From NCBI GenBank assembly GCA_031763025.1, contig JASSKH010000032.1:2745001-2809000 (forward strand): a stretch of DNA of 64,000 nt, in the 5' to 3' direction. The DNA is from Macrocystis pyrifera. Lineage: Eukaryota; Sar; Phaeophyceae; Laminariales; Laminariaceae. This document shows, piece after piece, positions 2,726 through 61,835 of the stretch. Numbering within the stretch: the stretch's first letter is position 1; every line of letters begins with the position of its first letter. A program made the translations under genes and the position numbers. Under the pieces are notes generated by a model. The model worked only from the letters and a program-made list of their open reading frames with translations. It ran no database searches and was not told the origin of the DNA.

Positions 2726-2995
2726 CGGAGCTTCGAGTGGGGGGGCCTTCACTCGGTCGGCGGATGCCAAGGCTAACGAATAGGGGGACAAGGCGATGGG
2801 GGCGAGGCCGATCGTAGGGCGTATGGAAGCAGCAGCGCGAGTTGCACAGGTTGTACGTCCGGGGTCGGCGTCCGTTGGGAGCCCAGGTCTTGGGGCCAGC
2901 GGGTGTAGCGCTGTGATCAGAAGCACTGGTGGCCAGCTCATCCACCAGTCCGTTGCGCAGCTTATACGTCAGGTGTCTGGTCTCGAATCGTTCAC

Positions 2996-3828
2996 TTGTT
3001 TCGGGAGTTAATAAGGGTGGCTGCGTATTTCGACATGTCAGCCTCCACTACGGATACGATTCAGGCGTTGCTTAAGTTCGTAGCATCGTGTGCGTTGGAG
3101 GGCAACCGAGCCGGTACTGTTGCCAGTAAACTATCGGCCGTGTTCCACCGCGTAAACATGCAAATGGAGCTTCCCACGTTGTCGCCGCTTGTTAAACGTG
3201 CGTTGCAAGGGGGGCACGGTCGCACATTGCCGCCGGTACCTCATACAAAGAATTCGTCGCCCTATTTCGTGGGAGACGTTGTTGGGAGGACAGGGCCTGT
3301 CCATGTCGTGGGGCCCGGGTGGCCGAGTTCTTTGGCTGTCGTTGGCATTGGGCTATTTCTTTTTTTTTCCATGGCGAAGGCTGACGAAATATTCGCTTGC
3401 TCGTCCAGAGTTGCACACCAGGTGCATTGCTTGACGAGGGCTGACGTAACGTTATTTGCGGGGGAGCGACGATTGACCTCGTTGCGGTGGCATCACGCCA
3501 CCAGTATCAAGGTCTTGTATTGGGGCAATAAAAGGTCCAGGCTCAGCAAAGATCGGGCATCGTGCGTACATGCGACGACGCCTTCGGGGCGCGTTCCGGG
3601 GTAGGAGCAGGCGGCGGTGCCGTCGCTCTCATGGTGGAGTTGTTGTCGGGATATCCGACGCTGCCAGAAAGCGCCCCCCTGTCGTCGTATCGGTACGGTA
3701 AGGAGGTCAAAGTTGAGAGGTACACGCAGGCCCTCGGGGCACTTCGTGAAGTGATAGCGGAAGCAGGAGACGATGCCGGCGAAGTCGGCCTTCCCTCATT
3801 GCGCGGCGGCCCGGGAGAAGAGCAGTAG
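2996..3828 (+). pseudogene. Tyrosine recombinase (phage-integrase-like) of a DIRS/Crypton-type element, frame-shifted and truncated
   Basis: The 2996-3604 frame begins with a SAM-like N-terminal domain. It shows the pattern of tyrosine recombinases: helices around TIQALLKFVASCALEG, then GTVASKLSAVFHRVN and PLVKRALQGG. Reading then jumps frame several times: 3189-3434 carries ISWETLLGG and LALGYFFFF, and 3562-3828 carries the later domain (LSSYRYGKEV, TQALGALREVI). Near 3789-3803 the residues LPSLRGG sit where families have the H-x-x-R box; the usual His is Pro here. The similarity stops just after this box, so the catalytic tyrosine region is missing. The protein would have cut and rejoined DNA during element integration. 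It cannot be functional as it stands. Family assignment rests on the spacing and motif pattern. Confidence 0.6.
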
Positions 3829-6050: not shown

Positions 6051-7320
6051 AAATGCCAAAATGAGGTATACCTAATACATTTGAGCCAAAACCCGGTATA
6101 GGCTTCAGTTAGAATACAACAGAGTACACATCACAAAATCTATCTTTTAATAGGAACTCGCGCCCCAGGATATTGATGACTGTCGTCAACTTGTACAATG
6201 TGTGCGCTGGTAGTTTCGCAAAATAATTCGATACCCTCGATTTGTCCTATATTAACCCCACTTTGAATCAAACGTTAATCATTAAACTGCAACCACCTTG
6301 CTATTTTGCGGACAATTCTCAGCTTTCCGTTTCTCATCTGTTTTTTTTTTGTCCCATACTGCAAACAAGTAAACAAGAGCCGTTTTTTTGGATGCTGGTC
6401 ATCTTTATTTTTTACGTTTTTTTTTAATATGTTTTTATTTATTACCCTTATTACCTTTACGTTGTCTTAATGTATTCACTGCACTTTCAAGAATATTCTG
6501 GTTTTAAAATATATAACCACCTTGATGCGAAAATTATCAGCTTTCCGTTCGTTAACTCGAGTTTTTTGTCCCATACTGAAACTCAAATGAGTCGTATGTG
6601 TTTTTTCAGATGCCGATCAACGTTTTAACGACCGTGATACAGCAGTCCCTGCTTTCGCAAATAGAGTAAATACGCCTACCCGACCGCGGTCGGGTGTTCG
6701 GGTCCCGTTTCCTGTGTGTGTCCTAGGCCCCAGTGGGCCGAAAGCTTTCTGAAACCGCATGTGTAGTCCGTCGCTATAGCCCGGTGCAACTGCTGTATAT
6801 ACGGACACGCCGGTTCGCCCGCTGTGAGTTCGGCCGATTGGTTGGTGGGTACCTGGGGCTCGACCCCTGACTGCGGTTAACGGAACTAGCTTTCTGCTGT
6901 AACGTGTGTTCTACGCCCCCGTGGGCGGAGGGCGCCTGGTGTCGAAGCCGGTGCTATACAGGAGGGGTAGGGGTGTAAATCGATGTCAAGGCCGCTGTTC
7001 CCGACGCTAACCTGGTATAGATTTTTTTTTTTTTTTTTTTTTTTACGCTTTTTGTGTGTTCGACCGGTGCAGGGGTGATACACTCTTTTCGCCCATGCGA
7101 GGTACAGCGATCAAATGCGCGCGACAGCAGTACGAGGCATACGTTCCCCTGTACACTACAGCGATATCTGCCGCGAACCTAGGCACGAATACGTATTCTG
7201 TGTGGCGACCCTTGTACTGTTGCCCTACTCAGTACGCGAGCGGATACGACGCGTACCATTATGGTCTGTGACAAGCGGTCCTCTACGGAGGGGTTGAGTT
7301 CGTACACACGCAGAGCATGA
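6051..7320. other. No gene seen; AT-rich, with a T22 run
   Basis: The left half (6051-6620) is AT-rich with several T runs. The right half is more GC-rich and contains a loosely repeated pair of segments (about 6710-6745 and 6900-6935, TGTGTGTCCTAGGCCCC-like). A poly-T tract of about 22 bases lies at 7022-7043. I found no protein or RNA match. Confidence 0.5.
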
Positions 7321-32944: not shown

Positions 32945-33745
32945 CAGGTAATCAATCGGTCGGCTACCTGTTTACTATCTCGTTTCTCGGGCAATGCCAA
33001 GGCTCACAGTAGTGCGTTGAGACTATCCTTTTTTACTGCTTGGTAAGCATAAATCCTAGAGCGGTAGGTGAGTCATGGTTGCGCTACCTGTATTCTTTGC
33101 CGTTGCTCGGGCAATAGCAAGGCCTATATCAAGGGATTAAGACTAACCTTGGTTGCATTGTTGCCTTCGGAATATCAAGACTGATAGCGGTAGGTAAACA
33201 GTCGGTCGGCTACCTGTCTTCTTTGTTGTTGCTCGAGCAATACATAGGCTTACAGCAGTAGATTCGACTGTTTTGTCTCTTTTCTCGTTGCTCGGGCATT
33301 ACCAAGGTTCAAAGCAGGAGGTTAGTCTACCTTGTCTATTTTGGAGGATCTCGGGCAATAGAAAGGCTTACACCAATAAAATAGACTACATGTCTCATTT
33401 TGTCGTTGCTCGGGTAATAGCAAGGACTACAGCAACATAATACACTATCTTGTCTATTATGTTATTCGGGAAATACCAAGGCTTGCAACAATATGTTTCA
33501 CTATCCTGTCTTTATTGTTGTTTCTCGGGCTATATGGAGGCTTGCAGAGCAAGAGGTTGGATTACCTTGTCTCTCTTGTCGTTGCTCGGGCAATAACATG
33601 GCTTACAGCAGTAGGTTGGACTGTCTGTCTCTTTCGTCGTTGCTCGAGCAATACCAAGACTTACAGCAATAGGTTACACTACCTTGTCTCTATGTCGATG
33701 GTAGGGCAATACCGTAGTAGTAGGTTTGACTAGCTGTCTCTGTCG
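32945..33745 (-). repeat. Leader minisatellite of the copia-type element, ~72-bp units, about 11 copies
   Basis: Units on the plus strand follow TTGCTCGGGCAATACCAAGG, CTTACAGCAGTAGGTT, (G)ACTACCTTGTCTCTTT. The array sits directly upstream of the gag start on the element's sense (minus) strand, so it would be part of the 5' leader. Related units flank the second copy at 60725-61070 and 61597-61835. Divergence among units is moderate. Confidence 0.85.
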
Positions 33746-38359: not shown

Positions 38360-38519
38360 TCAGCAGGCAGAGAAGTGGCGGGCGGGCGTCAGTACTGTAT
38401 TATCTGCGTATTTCCCTTCCAATGCTCGTGGGCAAGTAAGCACGACTTATCTGGAAGACGACGGCCTGTGCCGTGTTGCTGTTGCCAAGATGTAGACTAG
38501 CGTCTGCTGTAGTGAAAGG

Positions 38520-39590
38520 TCAAGAACAGCACAGGAAGGGTTTCATCTGTGCGTATTATACCCCCCCCCCCGTATATGTTGCATTGCAGTGGGGAGAAGA
38601 TGAATTGCCGATCGTCGACCAGTATACATACCTTGGCGTAGATATCTCAAAAGACTGCCCTTGGGATACACATATAGCAAAAGTAGTAGGAAAGAGCAAA
38701 CCACAAATAGGCGCGATTGGATGCGATCCTAACAGACTCGCCCCTTGACACTAGGATTAAAAAAATGTATCCTGATGAATGTGATAGTACCAATGCAGGA
38801 GAATTATGGGAAGGGAACGCGAAACTCTTTAAAACAGTTGGAAACAGTGCAACTGGCAGCAGTTAAAAAAAACATGAGATGCTCAAGTACGACTAGCAAT
38901 ACAGTATCAATAGCATAGCTGGGAATGCATCCACTCAAGACAAATAGTGACATGTGAAAGCTCACCTGGCAATATAAAGTAAGGAACATGACAAAAAAGA
39001 GGGAAAAGATAGGAATGAAAACATAATTACATGGCCCAAAGGACTTCGCGAAAACGCTGAAACTGCGCTTTCGTGTAGGTGACCTGGACCTGCCAGAAAG
39101 AAGAAAGAGGTTCACCAGTAGCCAGCAGGAGGAAGTAGATGCACAGATGTGCCCGTGGGGTAAAGCGATAGAGTAGAATTCACATAGTTGGAGAATGTGA
39201 AATATGCAAGGAAGAACGGGACGTGTTAGAAGAGGAGATGAGGGAAATAGACGAATGTGTCATGGAGGAGTTTGATACACTGAACTCACTTAGTAGGAGA
39301 ATGTTAAATATACAAAGAAGAATAGAATGTGCTTGAAGAGCAGATGAGGGAAATAGACGAATGTGACATGGAAGAGTTTGATACACTGAATAGCAGCGAG
39401 GAAACGATCGGTATCCTAGGAAATAGATGATGGCCAAAGGCGGCCAGGCAGGAAGGGGATAAGATAAGAAATAAGTTTATATGTAACAAATGGAAACAAC
39501 GTAATGAGCGCCCAATGGTTGGAGGTTTCTCTATTAGGAGTAGGAACGGTGCTCCGTCTCGAAAGCCCCCCCCCCGTATTGTAGTGTATA
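38520..39590 (+). pseudogene. 3' end of a non-LTR (LINE-type) retrotransposon, decayed
   Basis: The plus strand reads LPIVDQYTYLGVDISKDCPW, then DTHIAKVVGKSKPQIG. The YTYLGV-x-I-x-x-x-x-x-W-x-x-H-I-x-x-x-x-x-K pattern is typical of the end of a non-LTR reverse transcriptase (thumb). Frames then alternate through KCILMNVIVPM, KQLETVQLAAVKK, LGMHPLKTN, LRFRVGDLDLPERRKRF, CPWGKAIE, EEMREIDECDMEEFDTLN and RSRNGAPSRK. The CPxGK...H(I/T)xxxCE stretch corresponds to the C-terminal Cys/His segment seen in such elements. Several stops and frameshifts are present, and a 105-bp internal duplication interrupts the end. The catalytic YxDD portion is absent: a 5'-truncated copy, as is common for LINEs. No poly-A tail is evident. 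Confidence 0.75.
39193..39390. repeat. 105-bp tandem duplication inside the LINE 3' end
   Basis: 39193-39285 and 39298-39390 both run GAATGTGAAATATGCAA(G/A) ... GATGAGGGAAATAGACGAAT ... GGA(G/A)GAGTTTGATACACTGAA. The duplication shifts the frame and arose after, or during decay of, the element. Confidence 0.85.
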
Positions 39591-43944: not shown

Positions 43945-44618
43945 ATGGCTTCTTATACTACTCCTGAAGGCCACACGATGTTTTCGTCATCCCCGCCGTC
44001 AACGGCTCCTGCTCAGCAAACGCGCTCGCGCAATCGTTCCAACCTAAGCCAACCGGGCACCCAACGCAATCCCTATGCCATGAACGTCGCTAGCTCACCA
44101 GACAGTGACACTTTACTCTGGGTACTACCACTAGACTCTCGAACACGTCGACGAAGTAGGAATCGTGTTCACCACGGTTTCCACCACCGACCCCCCCCCT
44201 CTGGAGCCTTCTTCCTACAACTACAAAGAGAGCAAACGCCCTCCGCACATGGCGCGGACTATGTCTCAACTGCGGCGGGCTGGACCACAGCGTCGAAACG
44301 TGCCAACACCCCTCACAAACGTGTCTGGTGTTCTCAACCCCCGTCCTGGCCAGCTCAACGACGGAGGTTACGCTTTTCAACAGTGTCAACAACATATGCT
44401 GTCCTACCGTCCGGGGTGGTACAAACGCAATGCACATCGAACGTCGAAATCTCACTGCAACGGTTTCGACTCGAGGGGACCTAACTCTTCCAGCAATTCT
44501 AATGACAATCACCGGCATCACTCCAACTCTAAGAACTAGCGTTCCAACGGCAACTCAGACAGATCTGCCGCCTCGCAGTGGAGCGACCATTCCCACAAAA
44601 AACAACATCCCGGGATAG
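43945..44618 (+). pseudogene. Gypsy gag relic with CCHC zinc knuckle
   Basis: A frame from ATG 43945 (MASYTTPEGHTMFSSSPPST) runs Ser/Thr/Pro/Gln-rich. Reading then shifts, and at 44262-44303 it gives CLNCGGLDHSVETC, a C-x2-C-x4-H-x4-C knuckle that binds element RNA. Only about 100 residues separate the start from the knuckle, far less than a normal capsid, so most of the capsid is deleted or never belonged to this frame. After the knuckle the frame continues to about 44618. Confidence 0.6.
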
Positions 44619-44795
44619 TTCGCCCCAGCAAGTCACTCCCCGTTCTGCTTCATCTGCCATCGCCGTTACAGGTCCCACAACCTAGGCCTCCGCTACGCCC
44701 TCGACACACCTGTGCTTCCACCTCGTACAAAACGGTGGTAGTCACAACTCCCACCAACCGGGCACTTTCCGTGCTAACTGATGAGTCGATAGTGA

Positions 44796-45227
44796 GGGTG
44801 TGTCTTAACCCCCCCCAGAGAGCATTGGAACGAACCGGATGGAATATTATTTGCTGCATGATTTGATGCTGATTGGTTGTGGGAAACGAATGGATTCAGT
44901 GCAGCCCGAGAAAAACTGTATAACTAGGAAGAGGAAGAAGAAGTATTGCACCCCTTTTTCTTGTTTGGGAGGACCGAACGGCCCGACCGAACGGGAACGT
45001 ACAGGATCCTATTTGATGTAGATGGACACCACGGAAGATGGATGTGGACACCAATGTGCTCTAGGCATGTGCAAAAGATACCGTTCGTACTGATTCGGCT
45101 GGCGAGGCCCAGGATTCTGCATGGACCCAAACAGGTTATTTTACACCGGCACGGAACGAATGACCACGAACAGCCTCGTTCCGTTCCGCTCGTTCCCATG
45201 CTCTCCGGGGGGGGTTAAGACACACCC
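44796..45227. mobile_element. Non-autonomous DNA transposon with long terminal inverted repeats (432 bp), inserted in the gypsy relic
   Basis: The left end GGGTGTGTCTTAACCCCCCC continues CAGAGAGCATTGGAACGAAC. The right end is its reverse complement (CTCTCC, a G8 run, TTAAGACACACCC). The arms match over about 40 bases, with the AACGAG side extended further. The element is flanked by TGA on both sides, a possible 3-bp target duplication, which would fit a PIF/Harbinger-like mechanism; other superfamilies are not excluded. The interior has no transposase and only short frames. Its insertion in gag shows it arrived after the gypsy copy. Confidence 0.85.
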
Positions 45228-46133
45228 TGAAGACTCGCTCGCGGCTTCACCCGCAGCATCGCACGAGACCGCACCGGGTGCCTCTCAGGATGCTCCGGCA
45301 CGGTTGTTTCTCAGCGCCCTCTCCGAGCCTGCCGACCACCCCCCCCCCTCCCCGAATCCCCCCCCTCACCCACCTTCAATATTGACCACTTGATCTAGGG
45401 CTGGCTCCCTTGCTTAAACGGGTTGATTGAGGTGTGCGTGCGCAGGAGAGGATGGGCCCGCCGAGCCTTCCCACGTCGGTCCAATCGGCGCGCCAGTCGG
45501 TGGGCGACGCCGCGCCTTACCCGACATTGTCGGACATTCCGCGGATCTTGTCAACATCGTGGGATCACGACAACAACGATCAACAGCGGTATCAATACCC
45601 TCCCCGTCTCTGTCGACCCTACTCCAGGGCCATCGACCCCTTAGTCGTCTACGTCCTCTAATCAGCGATGTTCTCGGCGAACGTCAACTGGCGTCCGCCG
45701 ACCCCGGTCATCACATACTTCGACCTGCTTTGGTTCATCAGGTTCTCCAGGTCTCGTAGTTGCCGTGACCGTGCTGACCGCAGCCCTGCCCTCCGCCCAA
45801 GGGATGGTTTCCCGTGGACTCTTCCCCGGAAAATTCGACCACGTCACCAAGATATTCCAGGGGCCGCATGTACAGGCACTCAGACCCAGATTACGGACTG
45901 CTACAGGTGCCATATCTTTTTCCGAGTTCTTCTCTCTTTCACATACGCTAATTGCCGCTAGAAGGGACGCCCACAGAGCTGCGTTACGAACGTCACGCCA
46001 CCACGAACATCCTCCCGGGCCCTCGCTACCATCGACCTCCGCCCGCACGCTCTCCAGGACCGAAGCCGTCGTACCCACGTCGTCCCCGACAACGTCCCAC
46101 ACTCTCCCTCTCGAGCATGAGTCCCTCCCGCCT
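45228..46133 (+). pseudogene. Gypsy polyprotein linker, Pro/Ser-rich, between gag and NADAR
   Basis: Several overlapping plus-strand frames (45235-45393, 45427-45759, 45765-46133) are rich in Pro, Ser, Ala and Arg. No domain is recognised. The last of these is the N-terminal 123 residues of the frame that continues without interruption into the NADAR domain, so it is probably a real linker of the same polyprotein. Confidence 0.4.
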
Positions 46134-46580
46134 ATTTTGTATTTTTGGGAACATTCCTTGGTCTCCTCTCAGCGGTACCCTTCAACGTTCGCTGTATACA
46201 ACGAGCACTACCGCTGCGCGGAACATTTCATGAAGTCAAGGAAGGCCAAACGTTGCGGCGATACAGCAGATTGCCGGAATATCATGTCTTCTTCGACTCT
46301 CGCACAACGAAAAAACCCCGGTCGCTCCGTCTCCATTCAAACGGTTTAGAAACAACCCGGTTACGGCATCGTTTTCAACGGTAACCTCGCCAAGTTCTCG
46401 GTCCCTCCCTTGCTTCAACAACTGGTAGACACCGACAACAAGTTTCTCGACTGAGACAGCCCTGACCATCTCGTCTGTTCAGGGCCGACGATGTAAGAGC
46501 CGTGCGACTCCACCACTGGCCGGGAGTTAAACGTTTATGCCACATCCCGATGAAGGTCCGCCGCCAGCTTGACCACCCCC
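45765..46580 (+). pseudogene. NADAR (YbiA/DUF1768-like) N-glycosidase domain within the gypsy element
   Basis: The frame 45765-46349 (194 codons) ends with the domain. Residues 124-130 are ILYFWEH, then SSQRYPSTFAV (134-144), Y149, and CAEHFMKSRKA (151-161), with G165-D166. This is the NADAR signature: an F-W/Y-x-x start, SQ/SN-x-Y/F-P-S-x-F, and A-E-H-x-M-x-x-x-K-A-x-x-x-x-D. E153 and K160 are the conserved pair. After a stop at 46347-46349 the same frame continues GYGIVFNGNLAKF, then PPLLQQLV with TDNKFLD. Following a frameshift, DDVRAVRLHHWPG and IPMKVRRQL match the usual W-x-G-x-N-x-L-G-x-x-L-M-x-V-R-x-x-L ending. NADAR enzymes cleave N-glycosidic bonds in NAD-derived conjugates, including ADP-ribosylated guanine. 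The protease follows about 290 bases downstream. This copy is dead; the family call is from motif order. Confidence 0.75.
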
Positions 46581-46864
46581 CTCCACCCCGCCCCTCCTCC
46601 GCGCGTTTCGGGTGTCACCGTCTGTCAAGGGGATTCACAAGATAAATGCAACCGTTATTGCGCTTAGCGAGACCGCTATCCTGGACCAATTGCCGCCCTC
46701 CTTCGTCTAGGAAGCAACTCCTCCGCACACTTTGATTTCTGCCATTTCGGCCGGAGAAATCTTTTCCCCTACCCCTCTCCCGCTAATTGACAAACACGGA
46801 CCGGGTCTTTCGAGTATAGCTACCGTCGACGACGCCTCTTTCACGACCAGGATTAAAATGCACA

Positions 46865-47077
46865 GTGGACCCTCCCTCATCTAACAGCTACGGCATGATA
46901 GCCCTCCTGGACACCGGCTCCCCCAAGACCTTCATCTCCGCTGAAGCCTGGGCACGCAGGAAGCGTAGTAACGCCGCGTCGGACATCTGTGGACGACTCG
47001 CTCCCTCTCGCTCCTGGACAGGTTCCGGCAAATCCTCTCCCCTCCTCACTTCAACGCCCGTACGACCCAGCATCTAG
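46865..47077 (+). pseudogene. Gypsy aspartic protease
   Basis: The frame reads YGMIALLDTGSPKTFISAEA, with D-T-G as the active-site motif in A-L-L-D-T-G-S-P-x-T-F-I. This form, with SP(K/Q)TFI after the catalytic triad, is typical of gypsy-type proteases. A frameshift near 46985-47000 moves reading to 46989-47624, where NVHTIAPATTLSFVSVNLVR and related strands probably complete the protease-RT linker. It releases mature gag and pol proteins. Confidence 0.75.
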
Positions 47078-47821
47078 TTCTTCTACGACAATAGTCCCTC
47101 TGCCGAACATGCTGTATGGCCGTGAATTGTGCCACATGGGACTATGCAACGCCCAATGTTTCTGGAACGCGAGAGCTGGATGCGGTTCGAGCAACGCACG
47201 TACATCCCCGTGCTCGGTGTTCCCTCCCAACCGGCCTTTGGCGAGCTTTCCCTTCATCACCCCTAACACGGTTGGTCCCTGCACCTTGATCCACGCCAAC
47301 TGTTTTTCTCTTGAGCCTTTGCGCCTCGAGTTTAGCAACGTTCACACAATCGCCCCTGCGACTACGCTGTCCTTCGTCTCGGTAAATTTAGTGCGTTCTC
47401 CCGATATCCTGGCGCCTACCTGCTATTACCTCGTTGACATGCTTTCCCGCGACTGCCTTTCCTCCGAAACCAATTCTTCGTTAACAACGGCTTCAACAGT
47501 ATCTCGTGCTCAGGATTCACAGAGCTTGAACCAGACGACCTTCGGGGGCGTAATCTTTTCCCCACATACCAAATTCCGATCTCAGCACTGCAAGGTCTCC
47601 CCACGACGTCACCCCCAGTCCTAGCTGTTGCTGACGTACACGCCCTGCGCGACGTTACCACCTTACACGACGACAGACTCCCTCTTGCTGGTCCCCCCAA
47701 CACTCCTTGCCCCAAACTCCTGGAACGCCTAACTGCCGACCAACGGACAAGCTCTCCCCTCCTCTGGGACCTGCTTCTGCTACACCTCCACAGCGTCTCG
47801 TTCGACCTCCGCGGTTCGAGT
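47078..47821 (+). pseudogene. Gypsy protease-RT linker, decayed
   Basis: The plus-strand frame 46989-47624 covers most of this stretch and includes a hydrophobic region (47300-47440) that could be the end of the protease fold. After 47625 reading continues in other frames toward the RT start. No separate domain is seen. Confidence 0.4.
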
Positions 47822-48730
47822 TTGTCCCCATCAGTCACCACAGCCCTGAGAAATGTCATTTTAGAATTCCCCGATGTTTTCTCCACCTTCAAGACCGACT
47901 TTATCTCGTGCCCCATTATTTTCCTTGCTATAGTTTCAACCCCCCAGGTAGCGGCCCCGTCTTGGCCTTACCCCATCAACGCTATTCTTGCCAAGACAGC
48001 CGATGCTGTTCTTGACCAATGCTTGGCTTCCGACACCATTCCGCACTCTTCTCCTCCATGCGCCAGTCCTATGGTCGCCATTCCCATGAAATACCGCAAG
48101 GGTCGGACAACCGTAAACCTCAAAAGTCTTAACGCCATCAGCTCCCTGAACGAACTGCGCGTCCACAGTGTCGACGAGGTCCTCGGCTATCAAGACAAAG
48201 GTCGTATATTTCCCCCGTTCGAACCTGTGTCTTCGTTCCAACAAATCGCTATCGACAACGACACCATACTCCCGACCGCCTTCTGCACACCCACCTGACC
48301 ATTCCATGGCTCGTCATGCCTTACAGCAGCAGTGCCGTTCCTGGCTGGTGTGTCAAGGTGATCAACAAGGTCATCAAGGCCCTTGACCGCGTAGCAGCCA
48401 ATCTCGACGACGTCATAAACATAGATCTCCACCCCGCGATCCACGTCGCCAATATCCACTCGTGTTTTGAACGCCTTCAATAACAAACCTCACAATTTCC
48501 CGTTCCAACGCGGTGCTTGGCGCTACGGGCGCCTTTTTGAGACAAATCATCTCTTCCTCCGGCGTTCGTTGTAATGCCAACAACTTTGCCGCCCTAACCG
48601 GAGCATTCATGCCTCCTTACACTAGGAAACGCCTCTCACTTGTCGCAGGCATCAGGTACTACCGTCAATTCCTGAAGAACCGTTCCACATTCGCCCCAAA
48701 TTCACTCTTTTCGGACAAAAAAGTTGACTT
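47822..48730 (+). pseudogene. Gypsy reverse transcriptase, frame-shifted, catalytic box altered
   Basis: The N-terminal part (47822-48298) contains SPPCASPMVAIPMKYRKGRT and TTVNLKSLNAIS, the fingers region of gypsy RTs. IPP...SSFQQIAIDND follows. After a stop the next frame gives IPWLVMPYSSSAVPGW, VKVINKVIKAL, then ANLDDVINID at about 48397-48426. The LDDV motif corresponds to the Y-x-D-D catalytic box with its Tyr replaced by Asn. Later fragments are IISSSGVRCNANNFAALTGA and SLVAGIRYYRQFLKN (thumb). Copies element RNA into DNA; this copy is inactive. Confidence 0.8.
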
Positions 48731-48733
48731 CGT

Positions 48734-49621
48734 TTGACCTCGGAAATGGAAACCATGATTCGCCAGATCCTCCACGAACTCGCTGACCTCCAGATCTTCG
48801 TCTACCTGGACTGCGACGCCGTCGCCGACAACTCCCGCCCTTTTCCCCTCTACGGCGACGCCAGCATCCACAGTTTAGGCGCGACTCTTGAACAACAACA
48901 ACCAAACGGTTCCGTCTGCCCCGTTGTCTTTGTCAGTGGCACCACTCTCGACAACAAACGGTCCTTGACTCCCCTCGATCTCGAAGCCGGAAGCATCGTT
49001 TGGACCATTATAGAATGCCTCTGCGGCCACCTCTGGTCCACCAAGTTCCACATATACTCTAATCACAAGGCGCTCCAATGCATCACTAAAGTCGGCGAGT
49101 TTAACGCTCGAGTCCAACGTTGGCTGGAGTTCTTCTCCCCCTACTCCTACGCCCTGGAGTACCGAATAGGCTCGGCTATTGCCAATGCCGACTTCTTTTC
49201 TCGACTACCACAAGGAGCCACCGACTTGACCGTACCGGACGCAATCGCCTCACTAGTCCCGACTCCGTCGGCGTCTGCCGTATCAAAGTCTGCGATTTCA
49301 CTCCGATTGACCATTTTACACCAGGCATCGATTTCGGTGGGCTCGTCCCCCCTTCGTCCGTTCCCTTCGACACCATTCCACCACTCTCGTGCCCCGACAA
49401 ATATTATTTCGACTTCCGCCGCCACAAACCACGTATGGACAACTCGAACTTGGTTCAAGACACCGCCTCTGGATCGTCTCACAGCCTTCCCACCGGCCCC
49501 GGTTTTGCTTAAGATACCAACGCTGGATTTCCTTGCAGCCTTTCTCCGGACCCCCGTTTTGCTCATGATATTAGCGCCGGATCGCCCCGCCGCCTTCCCG
49601 CCCGTCCCTCCCCTTTATTAA
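48734..49621 (+). pseudogene. Gypsy RNase H domain plus C-terminal tail (295-codon open frame)
   Basis: The longest intact stretch of the relic. It begins in the RT connection (ETMIRQILHELADLQIFVYL) and carries the RNase H motif FPLYGDASIHSLGATLEQ with catalytic Asp. LEAGSIVWTIIECLCGHLWS follows, then FHIYSNHKALQCI, where family members have S-D-H, so one catalytic Asp is Asn here. IANADFFSRLP retains the last Asp. The remaining ~130 residues are Ser/Pro/Thr/Leu-rich without a domain. RNase H degrades the RNA strand during cDNA synthesis. Confidence 0.85.
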
Positions 49622-50320
49622 GAACCCACCATCAGAACGCCCCGCAGCTGGGTTGCCGGCTTGATCAATGTTCAATACCCATTGTCGACTCGCTTCGCAG
49701 CGCCTCGGTCGGTCACCTTGTTATCCTTAACCCCATCGCTTAATCACCTCCCAGCTCCGAACGAGCCACGGTGGCCGTTGGTGCTCCTGGTGTGGTGGCT
49801 TCAAGGCCACCCTTCGTGTCTCCATCGCGTCTAAATTCGGCCATTCCACGTTATTCGTCGGGCCTAACTCCTCGGACCCATCAGCGCTGCCGCTGGACCT
49901 TCCTGTACTCCTACGGACTACAGATTTACGGCCAAACGTCAGCTACGGCAGCTTCAAGACCGCAACTATTTCACCGCCGCTCGCCTACCGTTACACCCAG
50001 GCTAGTGATCCAGCGACCTGGTACACCACACCGTAGTCCTGCTCAAGACTCGCCCTTGTCAGCGACCCCAGCCAGCGCAGCTCCACCAGTGTGCCTGACA
50101 CCACCGCAGACCACCACTCAAGGGTCTTCTGCTCCGCCCCATTCTACTCAAGCACCCCGACTGCTAGAACATGTTTTCCGGCCGGATGACGACCCACACC
50201 TTTGTTCCCGTGTTGAGCGTTACACCTACACCAATTAGTGTCGCGAACAACCAACTGGTATCACGAACAACGCAACGAAAATCTCTTCTTCCTTACCTTC
50301 CGCTTTCACTCTTTGGGGTC
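49622..50320 (+). pseudogene. Gypsy linker between RNase H and integrase, no domain seen
   Basis: The frame 49771-50238 is Pro/Ser/Thr-rich (repeated PPQTTTQGSS-type composition). It probably represents the variable linker of the polyprotein. No recognisable motif. Confidence 0.35.
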
Positions 50321-51175
50321 ACTCATAACACCACCGAATGACCTCTTGGACTACATCCCTTCGACCCGTCGCCTACGTCTCTAGCATGTTCTTGGCCTCA
50401 TCGCGAAAGGTCATCCCCATACAACTGATAACGACACCTTTCTTCTCGTTCCCCAGCCGCACATGACTTCCTCGGGTCAAGCCCATATGGGTTACACCGC
50501 AGCCCCTGACAGAACCGACTCGCATCTATGTACCAATGCTGATGCGACCGTTGGTCTTACACACCTGCCTTTCCACCACCTCTTGCCACTTGAGTGTTGC
50601 GCAGACACTCAGCGCGCTTATGCGCTCCTGCTTGCGTAGACATCTCCACCCGTTGGTAGCCCCGCCGCTGCCTCAAGTGCCAGGGACGCGAGACTTTGCG
50701 ACGTACAATTCGCTCAGCCACCCTCTCCTTGTCGCTACCCAATGGTGCCGATGATTTCCTCAGCGCCGAATAATTCGGACCCTCATCATCATGCCTCGGG
50801 GCAACGCCTGCATCTGTATTTTCATCGACAGTTTCGGGCGCCACGCAGACAAGTACGCCACTACCGAAGCTGAGCTCACCACATCCAACCCGGCCGACAC
50901 CCTCGTCGATCGCTACATCCCACCCTGGGGATGCTCCGTTACCCTCATTTCCAACAACGGTCTTCAATTCTGCGCCAAATTCTCTCGCGCCGTCTACGAG
51001 CGCCTCGGCATCAACAAAGTCACGACGAGCTCCAACCTGTCCTGCACCAACGACGGCGTTGAACGCGTCAACTACACCATGACCTTGACTCGAACTACGA
51101 AACGATTAGACCATACATCTTCCTCACGTCGAACGCGACTCCGTCAGCGCCGCCAGCGGTCTGGCCCGCGATGAC
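50320..51175 (+). pseudogene. Gypsy integrase, catalytic D replaced by N
   Basis: The core is best seen at 50791-51174: CICIFIDSFGRHADKY (first Asp), then SNNGLQFCAKFSRAVYERLG, where families have S-D-N-G, so the second catalytic Asp is Asn. NDGVERVNYTMT carries the Glu of the D-D-E triad. Upstream, 50320-50700 has Cys and His residues in mixed frames (HLPFHHLLPLECCADT) that may be the HHCC zinc-binding domain. The enzyme joins cDNA to host DNA. Confidence 0.75.
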
Positions 51176-52379
51176 GTACACGTGGGCCGCCTGCCTCGCC
51201 TTCCCCTCGATGTGTTCGACCTTCCTAGCGTTGGCGGACATCAAAGCCTCAGCCGGCACAGCTCATCTAAATCGACGTTGCCCCGCCAACAACCCGCCAA
51301 CAGCGCGACAACCGCGCCGTCTGGCAACTTCACACTGTATACGTTTCGCGTCCCGGCCGTCGCAACACCCCCATCATGGACGCTCTCTGCCTTTCCCTTT
51401 TGTTCTTTGTCAAGGGTTGGGCATTGATCTACAACACCGTTGCCACTATTAGCCGAGGCGTCAACAAACGTACCTACGTCACCATTCTCAAGACCAAACT
51501 CTCCTTCGACATGATCGGCCTGTTCCAGATATTCGCCGTGGGCTCAGCTCCGGCCTCTGTCATTCTTCATGGACGCCCCCTTCACGACAAGCTCCTGTAT
51601 TTCGACCTTCCCTCCGGAATGACATGCCGGGCGCGACTGCCAACATTGCGTCTCCGTTCTCCAGTACAAGTCTTGTCGGAACCCCGATGACATCCACGAT
51701 CTCCCACAATACTCACCGGCCGTCCTGACCAAGTACGTTCTCAGCTCCTTCTCTACCAAGTCCCCGCCCTTCCACGTCACCGTGGACGACATCTCTCTAC
51801 CGCCGAACGCCTCGAGGTCGACCAGATCTCGGGACACCAACTGGTTTGCAGCCGGCGAGGCGTTCTCACCGTGATGTACGAATCATGCTGGGCCGGAGTC
51901 TTCTGCTCTTCTCGGGAACACGAACGATGCCTACGGCACCACCGACCCCATATCCTCCGCTATTGGTCGAGCACCTCTTCACAGCACCTCTCGCCAAACC
52001 ATTTTTACCGCCAGGTGCGCATCGTGGCCGCCCACCGAGAACTATCGCTGGCCCGTGGTGAATTCTTCCTCGCTTCCGGGTACAGCCTCGTCCTGCGCAC
52101 CCTCTAGCTCCACCGCTTCAGCTCTTCAACTCTCCCCGTCGGGGCACACCTCTGGTACAAGACCCGCGATGGTTTCCGGTGGATGGGCAAGTCATCTCCC
52201 GCGCCTCGACTCGTTAACTCCTCCGCTGATATCTACATCGTCCGCTTCCTCGACAACTCGGGTTCGATCAAGATTAACTTCGTTCCGTCCCTGCACACCA
52301 CTTCACTGAGCGCTATCCGAGGATATTGGTGTCTTCAGCGTCATCAGGCCGCAGGCTTAGCACGAGGTGTGCTCCGAAA

Positions 52380-56359: not shown

Positions 56360-56590
56360 CCTCAACATTTCACAGCTACTCCGAATACTTGGGAGTAAAG
56401 CAAAGTATGTTCGAGAAAATACTGCTGCTATTACCGTAGGTACTTCGTACACTCGCAGTATTTTCGGGTTTAGTACTCGAGATACTGCGAGTACTCGCAG
56501 TATTTTGAGGTTCTGTAGACACCACTACGTATACTTTCTTCGGGCTCGCACTAGTGCGGGGTCGGTGGTCCTCATTGTTTGGCAAATGCG
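56360..56590. repeat. AGTACT-rich dispersed repeat, copy B, left part
   Basis: CTCGCAGTATTTTGAGGTTCTGTAG and TTCTTCGGGCTCGCACTAG-like blocks match 8331-8400 of copy A. The match stops at about 56590, where the ACTTCC/GGAAGT array starts. Confidence 0.65.
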
Positions 56591-56604
56591 TGGAAGCTTT
56601 CACA

Positions 56605-58235
56605 ACTGCCATTTGGAAGTAAACAACTTCCATAACTTCCATTTTGATTTCCAAATGGAAGTTTTTCACTTCCAAAGGAAGTTGTGAAAGTCAAAATGAA
56701 AGTTTTTAACTTCCAAATGGAAGTCGTGAAAGTCAAAAAGGAAGTTTCGAAGTTTTTTACTTCGAAATGGAAGTTGTGGAAGTTTCGACTTCCAAATGTA
56801 AGATTTGGAAGTCGAGTGGAAACTTCCATTTAGCCCATGGAAGTTTCCATTTTGGAAGCTTCCACTGCCATGCCCGGTAGAAGCTTCGTCCAGCTTCCAT
56901 TAAGCTTCCATACATCTTGATATACTTTCACCTACTGTCACCCACTTCCACTTCACGTCTAGAAGTTCCATTATTCTTCTACCTTCAAGGAAACTTCCAT
57001 CGGCGTCCCCCTAATATTCTGTCCACGTCCATACTGAACCGTAACTTCCACTTACTTCCACCTAGTCACATCCGCTTCCATTCAACTTCCACAAGTATCG
57101 TTTGGCTTGCAAAACTTCCACTAATTTCAACGAAACTCGCATCTGAGTACGCAGAATCTTCTGACCACTCCCCCATATTCAAGCGCGACTTCCACCTACT
57201 TGTACGTACTTCCCACGCACTTCGATTAAACTTCCAATGGCTACAGCTTAATTATTTATTTAGCTTCTATTTAGCTTCCATTTCAATGGAAACGTTCACC
57301 TACACCCGCAGACGCTTCCATCCACTCCTATAGTCAAGCTTACCTTCCCCCTAATCCCACTCACTTATATCCGTTTCCAATTATCCAACTTCCACATGTC
57401 CAAAGTTACGTGTAACCCTTCTTACACGGAAATTCATATCAGCGTTCGCCGAAGGTTCCATACACTCTCATATGCAAGAATAAATTCAACATATTTTCAC
57501 GTACTTCCACGAGCTCTCATTCACTTCCAATAAACTACCAAGAAATATGTTTGTCTCGTATTACCATGGAAAACTCCCATCTACGTCTGCAGAGGCTCCT
57601 ATCCACTCCCCGGGGCTCATATGCATGTGGGACTTTGGCCTAATCACTTCTTTTATGAAGTGAAAATGAAGCTTGGAAGTGAAGATGGAAGTACTGGAAG
57701 TCGGGAATGAGCCTACCACGTGAATTCCATTCTATATTCAACTTCCAAAAGCTCCATTTGGACTTCCAAACGGATTTTTTTTTCACCCCAAAGGGGAGTT
57801 TGTGTGAAGTTTTGGACTTTTAAATGGAAGTTTCCGACTTCCAAATAGAAGTGTTCCACTTCCAAATGGAAGTTTTCGACTTCCAAATGGAAGTTTCTAA
57901 CTTCCAATAACTTCCAAATGGAAGCTCCTAACATCCAGTAACTTCCAAATGGAAGTTGTGGAAGCACAAATGGAAGTTTAGGAAGTGAAAGTAGAAGCCT
58001 CGCCAGCAATTCGAAACCTTCCTTTTTGACTTCCAAAACTTCCATTTGGACTTCCACAACTTCCATTTGGAAGTTCCACAACTTCTATGTGGAAGTTTGG
58101 AAGTTTTAAACTTCCATTTGGAAGTTTTAAACTTCCATTTGGAAGTTAGAAACTTCCTGTTGGAAGTAAAAATGGAAGCTTTGGACGTTTTTGACTTCCA
58201 AATGGAAGTTTTGGGAGTCGAGTGGAAGCTTCCAC
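56605..58235. repeat. Array of palindromic ACTTCCAAATGGAAGT motifs (ACTTCC/GGAAGT), about 1.6 kb
   Basis: The hexamers ACTTCC and GGAAGT recur dozens of times. In 56605-56870 and 57655-58235 they alternate and build the perfect palindrome ACTTCCAAATGGAAGT, with steps of roughly 18-30 bases. In the middle (56900-57600) the plus strand carries mostly CTTCCA and CTTCCAC at wider, irregular steps. Both strands therefore read as repeated FHLEV/WKLK-type peptides (57713-58081 minus, 58046-58246 plus); these are not genes. Confidence 0.85.
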
Positions 58236-58261
58236 ACATTTACTAAATAATGAGGTGGACC

Positions 58262-60724: not shown

Positions 60725-61835
60725 CGGCGATAAGCATTCAGTCGGTCGGCTACCTGTCTTCTTGCCGTTGCTTGGGTAATGCTAAGGTTCACAGCAGTGA
60801 TTAAGACTACCCTTAATGATGTCGTTTCTTGATAGATGTCAAGACATACAGCGGTAGGTAAGTAGTCGGTTGGCAATCTGTCCTGTTGTTTTGTTGTCGT
60901 TTCTCGGGCAATGCTAAGGCTCAAACCAGTGGGTTAGGACTACCCTTGTGTTATCGTTGCTTGATAAATAGAAATATTTACTGCTGCAGGTAAACAGTCG
61001 GTCGGCTACCTGTCTTCATTATCGTTGCTTGGGCAATGCCAAGGCTCACAGCAGTGGGTTGAGACTACCCCAAGGCTTGTTATGTTGCGGCGGAGGGAGG
61101 TGGGAGCAACCAAAAATACGACGCGTCGAGGCATGCAGCCACGAGTCGTTGGGCGCAGAGTAGAGGCGGAATACTCTGTGGGTGTGGGAGGGGTGATTCA
61201 TTCAGCAGACGGTTTCAGCCTGCTGAATGCAAAACGCCTGACCAAGACGTACAGCGCATGCAGCGCATGGACCAAAACCGAGTGTCTTCAGACGCTACCC
61301 AGGCAAGGAAGAGAATACGTTCAAAATCTAAAAAGTGAACTATAGGACTAAAAACTGAAGGATTAGAGGCTAAACCGACTGTTCGCTCGCATATACGCAT
61401 CATTCCATGTGATAACGGGCATAATCGAGTATCTGCATCGCTCGCAATCGGGGGTTTTGATCATTGTTTGCTTCGCTCTCGCCTGAGCGGAGCCTTGGAG
61501 CCACTGGGACTGCCGAAGGGTCCAACGTACGAACTGAGGAGGCGAGTCAGGTGAGCGTTGACAGCTCACCCCGGGGAGAGCTTGCCGTCACAGTTATCGT
61601 TGCTTGGTAAATATCAAGAATTACAGCCAAAGGTAATCAGTCGGCCGGCTACTTCCCTTCGTTGTCGTAGCTCGGGATACACCGATCCTTACAGCAATAG
61701 GTCAGACTACCTTGTCTCTTTATCGTTGATCAGGCAATACCATGACTTTCAGCAGTAGTTTAGACTACCTCGTTTCTGTCGTTGCTTGCGTAAATACCAA
61801 GGCATACAGCGGTAGGTTTGACTACCTATCTTGGT
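60725..61835 (-). repeat. Leader minisatellite of the second copia-type copy, interrupted by 526 bp
   Basis: The same ~72-bp units as 32945-33745 lie at 60725-61070 and 61597-61835 (GGTAAACAGTCGGTCGGCTA, TTGCTTGGGCAATGCCAAGG, CAGCAGTGGGTT). Between them, 61071-61596 is unrelated GC-richer sequence that interrupts one unit after GACTACCC. Confidence 0.75.
61071..61596. mobile_element. 526-bp insertion in the leader minisatellite, type unknown
   Basis: The insertion splits a repeat unit between GACTACCC and TTATCGTTGC. It contains hairpins ATTCAGCAG...CTGCTGAAT (about 61197-61228) and GGTGAGC...GCTCACC (about 61552-61573). There is no terminal inverted repeat and no clear target duplication. 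A plus-strand frame overlaps (61025-61345) without a known domain. Confidence 0.5.

Follow-up and report, generated by a model that had tools for sequence, protein, structure and literature searches.

A YbiA-type NADAR domain ahead of the protease in Ty3/gypsy retrotransposons of Macrocystis pyrifera

The window analyzed here is a stretch of 64,000 nucleotides from Macrocystis pyrifera (assembly GCA_031763025.1, contig JASSKH010000032.1, positions 2,745,001 to 2,809,000 of the forward strand). Positions 44130-52379 of its plus strand hold what is almost certainly an old, dead copy of a NADAR-carrying Ty3/gypsy retrotransposon, whose lineage captured a YbiA-type NADAR, and there is very little doubt that this domain occupies the N-terminus of Pol, ahead of the protease (Table 1). 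The gag knuckle, NADAR, protease, RT, RNaseH and integrase follow one another in this order on one strand. Knuckle and protease are called from their motifs alone, with Pfam values that are not over the cut-off, and the integrase piece matches the Pfam family rve at E=0.1, while its relatives match both H2C2 and rve. LTRs of the element were looked for and not found, and an Rfam search of the window at gathering thresholds returned nothing. The only nested insertion observed is the MITE-like repeat between gag and NADAR, which is foreign to the retroelement. By eye, this repeat is flanked by a possible 3-bp target duplication, TGA.

Table 1. Parts of the retroelement copy in the window and the evidence by which each was placed.
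Feature	Position	Strand	Evidence
3' part of gag with CCHC knuckle	44130..44430	+	60% alignment to gag end of subfamily-B element L021
CCHC knuckle CLNCGGLDHSVETC	44262-44303	+	motif; Pfam zf-CCHC_4 only E=0.13
MITE-like insertion with TIRs, between gag and NADAR	44795..45228		50-bp inverted repeat, 88% identical
Linker between gag and NADAR	45336..45644	+	60% alignment to L021 and L028
NADAR domain remnant	46140..46570	+	PF08719 match at 46140-46334; translations; alignment to 13 intact C copies
Protease-RT-RNaseH region of Pol	46767..49439	+	full-length alignment to L021, 64%
Aspartic protease motif ALLDTGS	46901..46921	+	motif; Pfam Asp_protease_2 only E=0.11
RNaseH domain of RT	48827..49144	+	PF17917, E=4.1e-17
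Integrase region and C-terminal tail	50182..52379	+	alignment to L027, 63%

The preliminary description had placed a NADAR at 45765-46580, based on motifs said to lie in order between a CCHC knuckle and an ALLDTG protease on one strand. All of these motifs are present on the plus strand: SSQRYPSTFAV and CAEHFMKSRKA in frame 45645-46349, GYGIVFNGNLAKF in frame 46350-46451 and HWPGV...MKVRRQL, in another frame, at 46514-46570. The domain is therefore there, and its extent has to be narrowed to the boundaries in Table 1, the tightest that could be drawn. In the profile check that had been proposed, the 5' half matched PF08719 with E=7.8e-6 and 26.7 bits, which is under the curated cut-off of 35.1 bits, and the second piece of 34 residues, taken alone, gave no PF08719 match; two relatives elsewhere in the genome lie well over this cut-off (L020 with 163.5 bits, L021 with 162.2 bits). 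A chance match of motifs was ruled out by these profile matches and by 39 other genomic places with the same stretch. The reading frame of the window NADAR is broken by three stops (TAG at 46347, TGA at 46452 and TAA at 46494), and it also shifts ahead of position 46514. The TGA sits where intact copies of the same type hold the catalytic Glu E125 (numbering of the Phytophthora nicotianae NADAR), and the equivalents of E43 and K50 are kept within AEHFMKSRK. Compared with 13 unbroken copies of its type, the window NADAR carries 19, 25 and 23 private differences at 143, 143 and 142 sites of the three codon positions, an even spread that matches the expectation for a dead copy.

A profile search for PF08719 was carried out on the genome (537,376,219 bases in 223 contigs), and the best 150 of 1,264 candidate places were scored. 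All 150 are over the cut-off and better preserved than the window copy; 24 of them, counted from the listing, contain a stop inside the match, and open frames with NADAR reach 1,696 aa. This set overlaps largely with the best 150 of 1,228 places, and those examined resemble element copies. Twenty loci with the best scores and longest frames were hand-picked from the 150 as 10-kb stretches, and 40 further copies, drawn at random with seed 1, were taken as NADAR only, together with 20 of 39 copies of the window type. In L020, a single open frame of 1,696 aa holds NADAR (E=6.7e-48), LDTGS, RT and RNaseH, the LDTGS motif lying between NADAR and RT, and L021 likewise combines these parts in one frame of 1,231 aa. 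These are the two loci among the 20 with such a continuous frame, and neither matched a Pfam protease family at E 0.1. LDTGS was located just downstream of NADAR in 18/20 loci, and in several of the 20 a gag-like, CCHC-containing ORF precedes Pol. This ORF overlaps the Pol frame in L017; stops intervene in other loci.

The 20 loci fall into subfamily A (L009-L020 and L026) and subfamily B (L021-L025, L027 and L028), and the window represents a third type, subfamily C. In a search in which 40 of 83 candidates were scored, the window itself among the 40, this type was found at 39 other genomic places with 73-76% DNA identity to the NADAR stretch of the window; the NADAR is uninterrupted in 13 of the 20 copies taken from them. 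The window aligns with one of the C copies, L089, over 45769-49755 as one block of 74%, which comprises linker, NADAR, protease, RT and RNaseH. Alignment with the B element L021 yields blocks at 44130-44430, 45336-45644, 46209-46477, 46767-49439 and 50254-51827, and L027 aligns with the NADAR at 46143-46477. For the A elements tested at the DNA level (L011, L012, L017 and L020), no NADAR block was over the cut-off, while protease-RT and integrase blocks were, as was gag in L012 and L017. The shared frames of L020 and L021 and the colinear alignment of the window support the proposal that NADAR is an integral domain of a Ty3/gypsy polyprotein, and gypsy polyproteins with NADAR, for which a search had been suggested, exist both in this genome (L020, L021) and in Ectocarpus. 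The window alone would leave room for a stand-alone host NADAR gene inserted by chance, as its NADAR lies in a broken stretch near the nested MITE-like repeat; this explanation can practically be discounted in view of the two continuous frames, the position of LDTGS in 18/20 loci, the Ectocarpus polyproteins and the one-block alignment with L089, which excludes a nested gene. A nested gene with flanks of its own was likewise rejected, since both flanks align to NADAR-bearing elements.

A protein search with the RT region returned 432 proteins from 7,992 scored candidates, of which the 120 best were used and split at a gap in identity (at least 48% versus at most 42%) into 92 inside and 28 outside rows. 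NADAR was found in 32/92 inside rows, most of the others being without the upstream part: among these best 120 of 432, the domain is present in 12/15 inside rows with at least 600 residues before RT, counting P0096 with only 18.5 bits, and in 20/77 rows with fewer. The long inside relatives P0085, P0102 and P0117 had no detected NADAR. None of the 28 outside rows showed the domain, and only three of these have 600 residues before RT. A quick RT tree of 109 rows, in which L089 represents the window type in place of the broken window RT and from which five NADAR-bearing rows with short RTs were left out, places 30/30 NADAR rows in one clade of 81 rows (SH-aLRT 99); four of the 30 come from the genome studied here, and Ectocarpus rows are included. 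NADAR-bearing rows do not cluster inside this clade (25 label changes versus a shuffled mean of 26.4), which was ascribed to truncated rows, and the early-branching rows P0103, P0117 and P0148 showed no NADAR. Among the matches listed, the closest RT relatives overall are P0074 and P0075 (90%), and the nearest named ones are polyproteins with PF08719 from Ectocarpus sp. CCAP 1310/34. The hint at red algae in the preliminary description is thus not borne out, as the nearest named polyproteins among these matches come from a brown alga.

When the NADAR region served as the query, the protein search found no NADAR polyproteins, whereas the RT-region query did find them. The stand-alone NADAR relatives mostly show 41-54% identity, and the few named ones are bacterial, limpet and sponge proteins. 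In a NADAR tree, 27 of 33 element NADARs form one clade (97/93), with six B- and C-type rows left unplaced. A tree constrained to unite all 33 scored 5.09 log units better (p-AU 0.553), so that these trees do not reject a single origin for them. Independent capture by A, B and C was set aside, the single clade having scored better in the same comparison. As a separate observation, the stress-related Ectocarpus gene Esi0017_0056 could be a relative, a donor or a domesticated piece of a NADAR-gypsy Pol; its product is described as a protein of 391 aa with a NADAR in its middle and two predicted introns (PMC7922944).

The basic finding of a NADAR-bearing gypsy element is already published for Ectocarpus, where such a lineage includes, for example, Gypsy-12_Ec32 (PMC12477816). 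The covered text of that paper contains no analysis of selection or of the active site of NADAR, and apart from it no other report of a NADAR-bearing retroelement was among the matches listed. The elements described here share the domain order of the Gypsy-12_Ec32 lineage, and their RTs fall into one clade with those of the Ectocarpus NADAR elements. Compared by description, they differ by comprising three subfamilies, A, B and C, and an RT-deleted derivative of B within a 537-Mb genome. A putative C-terminal chromodomain is reported for the Ectocarpus lineage (PMC12477816); in the integrase ORFs of L011, L021, L024 and L025 and in the tail of the window element, none was detected by Pfam, the L024 ORF matching PWWP weakly (E=0.19). 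Tx1 LINEs of Crassostrea gigas, with NADAR in ORF1, are also retrotransposon-borne cases, set apart by their description as non-LTR elements with a divergent domain (PMC12477816). To the published finding, the present data add a further genome with three subfamilies, purifying selection on NADAR and conservation of its catalytic residues, a single RT clade, and RT-less derivatives in which NADAR persists.

Selection on the domain was assessed between the subfamilies with one natural copy each (L020 for A, L021 for B and L089 for C). The NADAR dN/dS is 0.172 for A-B and 0.149 for B-C, with synonymous sites saturated for A-C, and the protease region gives closely similar values (0.178 and 0.144, A-C again saturated). 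The ratios are 0.083, 0.080 and 0.069 for RT and 0.064 and 0.064 for RNaseH, where A-B is saturated; all are rough, since synonymous sites have diverged almost to saturation (dS of 2.55 or more for NADAR). NADAR divergence between subfamilies amounts to 0.38-0.40, 0.28-0.31 and 0.57-0.67 at the three codon positions, and identity is 50 and 57% in two NADAR bins of 60 columns versus 32 and 37% in two bins of the linker that follows. As judged from these codon comparisons, purifying selection acts on NADAR between subfamilies, in answer to the suggested check for such selection, at a dN/dS of about 0.15-0.17 that resembles the protease region. Within subfamilies, NADAR pN/pS values of 0.54 (A), 0.58 (B) and 0.34 (C) hint at weak constraint, as for young copies; because the 150 places are the best-scoring ones, these values are biased to conservation, and the claim of selection therefore rests on the comparison between subfamilies. 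NADAR changes about twice as fast as RT. B and C are the nearest pair in the protease region (66% identity), RT (87%) and RNaseH (88%), and they are not the nearest in NADAR, with 51% versus 52 and 53% for the other pairs. This discordance between NADAR and the remaining parts could reflect domain exchange, fast evolution or weaker constraint.

The residues E43, K50 and E125 of the P. nicotianae NADAR are reported to be mechanistically relevant (E88, K95 and D171 in E. coli C7), and its ligand contacts include R79, W89, R93, D130 and W133 (PMC11543638). Their equivalents were counted in 66 unbroken copies out of 80 from the genome studied here; the 14 dropped copies comprise 7/60 of A and B with stops and 7/20 of C in which the search motif was not matched in full and without interruption. 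E43 is kept in 62/66, K50 in 65/66 and E125 in 66/66, and each of R79, W89, R93, D130 and W133 in 66/66. Polyproteins from other sources, 25 in number, retain K50 in 25/25, W133 in 23/24, E125 in all 24 and E43 in 19 of 20 that reach the respective position, and R93 in only 14/25, a position that also varies in stand-alone NADAR relatives (kept in 26/62). By alignment, most unbroken element NADARs retain the published catalytic residues. Glu at the E125 position marks the YbiA subfamily, to which all 66 copies correspond at this site; the BC4488 and phage NADAR subfamilies are described with Asp or His instead.

An AlphaFold2 model of the relative P0003, which is not from this genome and carries Ser at the D130 position, reaches a pLDDT of at least 90 in 151/231 residues. 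A Foldseek search with this model matched the P. nicotianae NADAR (8bau, E=3.1e-9) and E. coli YbiA (2b3w, E=2.0e-7) as the sole PDB entries at E <= 0.001, and a YbiA fold is consequently predicted for the element NADAR by way of this relative. At the sequence level, the L020 NADAR matches 8bau with E=2.8e-15 and 2b3w with E=2.8e-5. The element domain is thus like both proteins in modeled fold and in its YbiA-type Glu, E125; unlike it, the two proteins are not, as described, parts of retroelement polyproteins.

In five of the seven B loci (L023, L024, L025, L027 and L028), the same stretch is missing, corresponding to positions 6421-7595 of L021. This deletion of 1,175 bases leaves nothing of the RT match of L021 and very little of its RNaseH match, with the joint in L025 around 6417-6418, and about 1 kb of gag is missing in 5/7 B loci as well. 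Beyond the joint, L023, L024 and L025 still have an open frame, which is a shifted one. When the joint was searched for in the genome, it was present at full length in 40/40 scored places (305 candidates). A NADAR from the list of the best 150 PF08719 places lies 1-2 kb upstream in 26/40, and 9 of the other 14 contain one too, two with stops and two split, which brings the count to 35/40; none was found within the stretch taken in the remaining 5/40. Elements that need a borrowed RT thus still mostly carry the domain. Such retention would fit a function in cis; hitchhiking within a young family would explain it equally well.

NADARs are reported to reverse ADP-ribosylation of guanine on DNA and RNA, and a non-DarT oomycete NADAR to be active on DNA (PMC11543638; PMC11833690), with guanosine-ADP-ribosylated RNA among the substrates described (PMC11833690). 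The most likely, though putative, role of the element domain is to strip ADP-ribose off guanines in the RNA or cDNA of its own element. NADAR would be produced within Gag-Pol and would ride in the particle alongside element RNA and cDNA, where it may hydrolyse ADP-ribose put on guanine bases by host or other ADP-ribosyltransferases, and reverse transcription would be unblocked by this removal. The reading as a whole, that is capture together with a putative clearing of guanine ADP-ribose from element nucleic acid, is held tentatively, its probability falling somewhat short of even. NADARs of the E. coli host and of phage are described as active in vitro without general protection from DarT1, and those outside DarT operons, in spite of their in vitro activity, as inefficient in countering DarT1 toxicity (PMC11125620). 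Given this inefficiency, the substrate of the element NADAR may differ.

It is also conceivable, if rather unlikely, that the domain is past its use as an enzyme and serves Pol as a structural part or as a binder of ADP-ribose or RNA, or is a tolerated passenger. A constraint below that of RT would fit this, as would the changes at E43 (4/66) and K50 (1/66) in unbroken copies, the long clade relatives P0085, P0102 and P0117 without detected NADAR and the retention of R93 in only 14/25 polyproteins from elsewhere; set against these are the invariance of E125, R79, W89, D130 and W133 in all 66 unbroken copies, a dN/dS resembling that of the protease region and the spread of NADAR through a clade spanning this genome and Ectocarpus. 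An active N-glycosidase that acts on small molecules, NAD-derived or from the riboflavin pathway, and shifts host stress or cell-death signals in favor of the element is unlikely. E. coli YbiA is reported to cleave reactive riboflavin-pathway intermediates, with further substrates possible (PMC11543638), and since the kept residues contact ADP-ribose, their conservation is no proof of a nucleic-acid substrate. However, the NADARs tested act on guanine-ADP-ribose (PMC11125620; PMC11833690), and a scarce, Pol-borne enzyme would probably be a poor lever on a metabolite pool.

Removal of ADP-ribose from element nucleic acid may be extended to a brown-algal Ty3/gypsy clade that putatively erases a host defence mark, acting in cis in the particle and diverging through conflict with host ADP-ribosyltransferases. 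This extension is doubtful; cis action would account for the retention of NADAR by RT-deleted, trans-dependent derivatives, and conflict for its fast divergence between subfamilies. DarT1-NADAR (DarTG1) antitoxins and the T4 phage NADAR belong to the same superfamily and are described as stripping ADP-ribose from guanine. If the element NADAR were an active eraser, it would be the counterpart of these toxin-antitoxin and phage NADARs in eukaryotic retroelements, and it would point to an unrecognised algal defence in which retroelement nucleic acid is ADP-ribosylated. Selection, the active site, a single RT clade and retention in RT-less copies make this idea directly testable, past the published remark on the presence of the domain.

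Elsewhere in the window, positions 56570-58250 are densely packed with units of roughly 21 bases, of the AACTTCCAAATGGAAGTT type, in palindromic and tandem arrangement. The ORF at 2909-3604, which gave no Pfam match at E 0.1, looks by eye like the tyrosine recombinase of a DIRS/Ngaro-type element. Positions 38440-38748 and 39176-39390 hold a frame that resembles the C-terminal end of an RT from a non-LTR retrotransposon, a putative LINE (QYTYLGVDISKDCPWDTHI), and, near this frame, a 106-bp tandem repeat. Two separate tandem arrays, at 33210-33713 and 60739-61070, are built from a similar unit, CTACCTGTCT...TTGTCGTTGCT.GGGCAAT...
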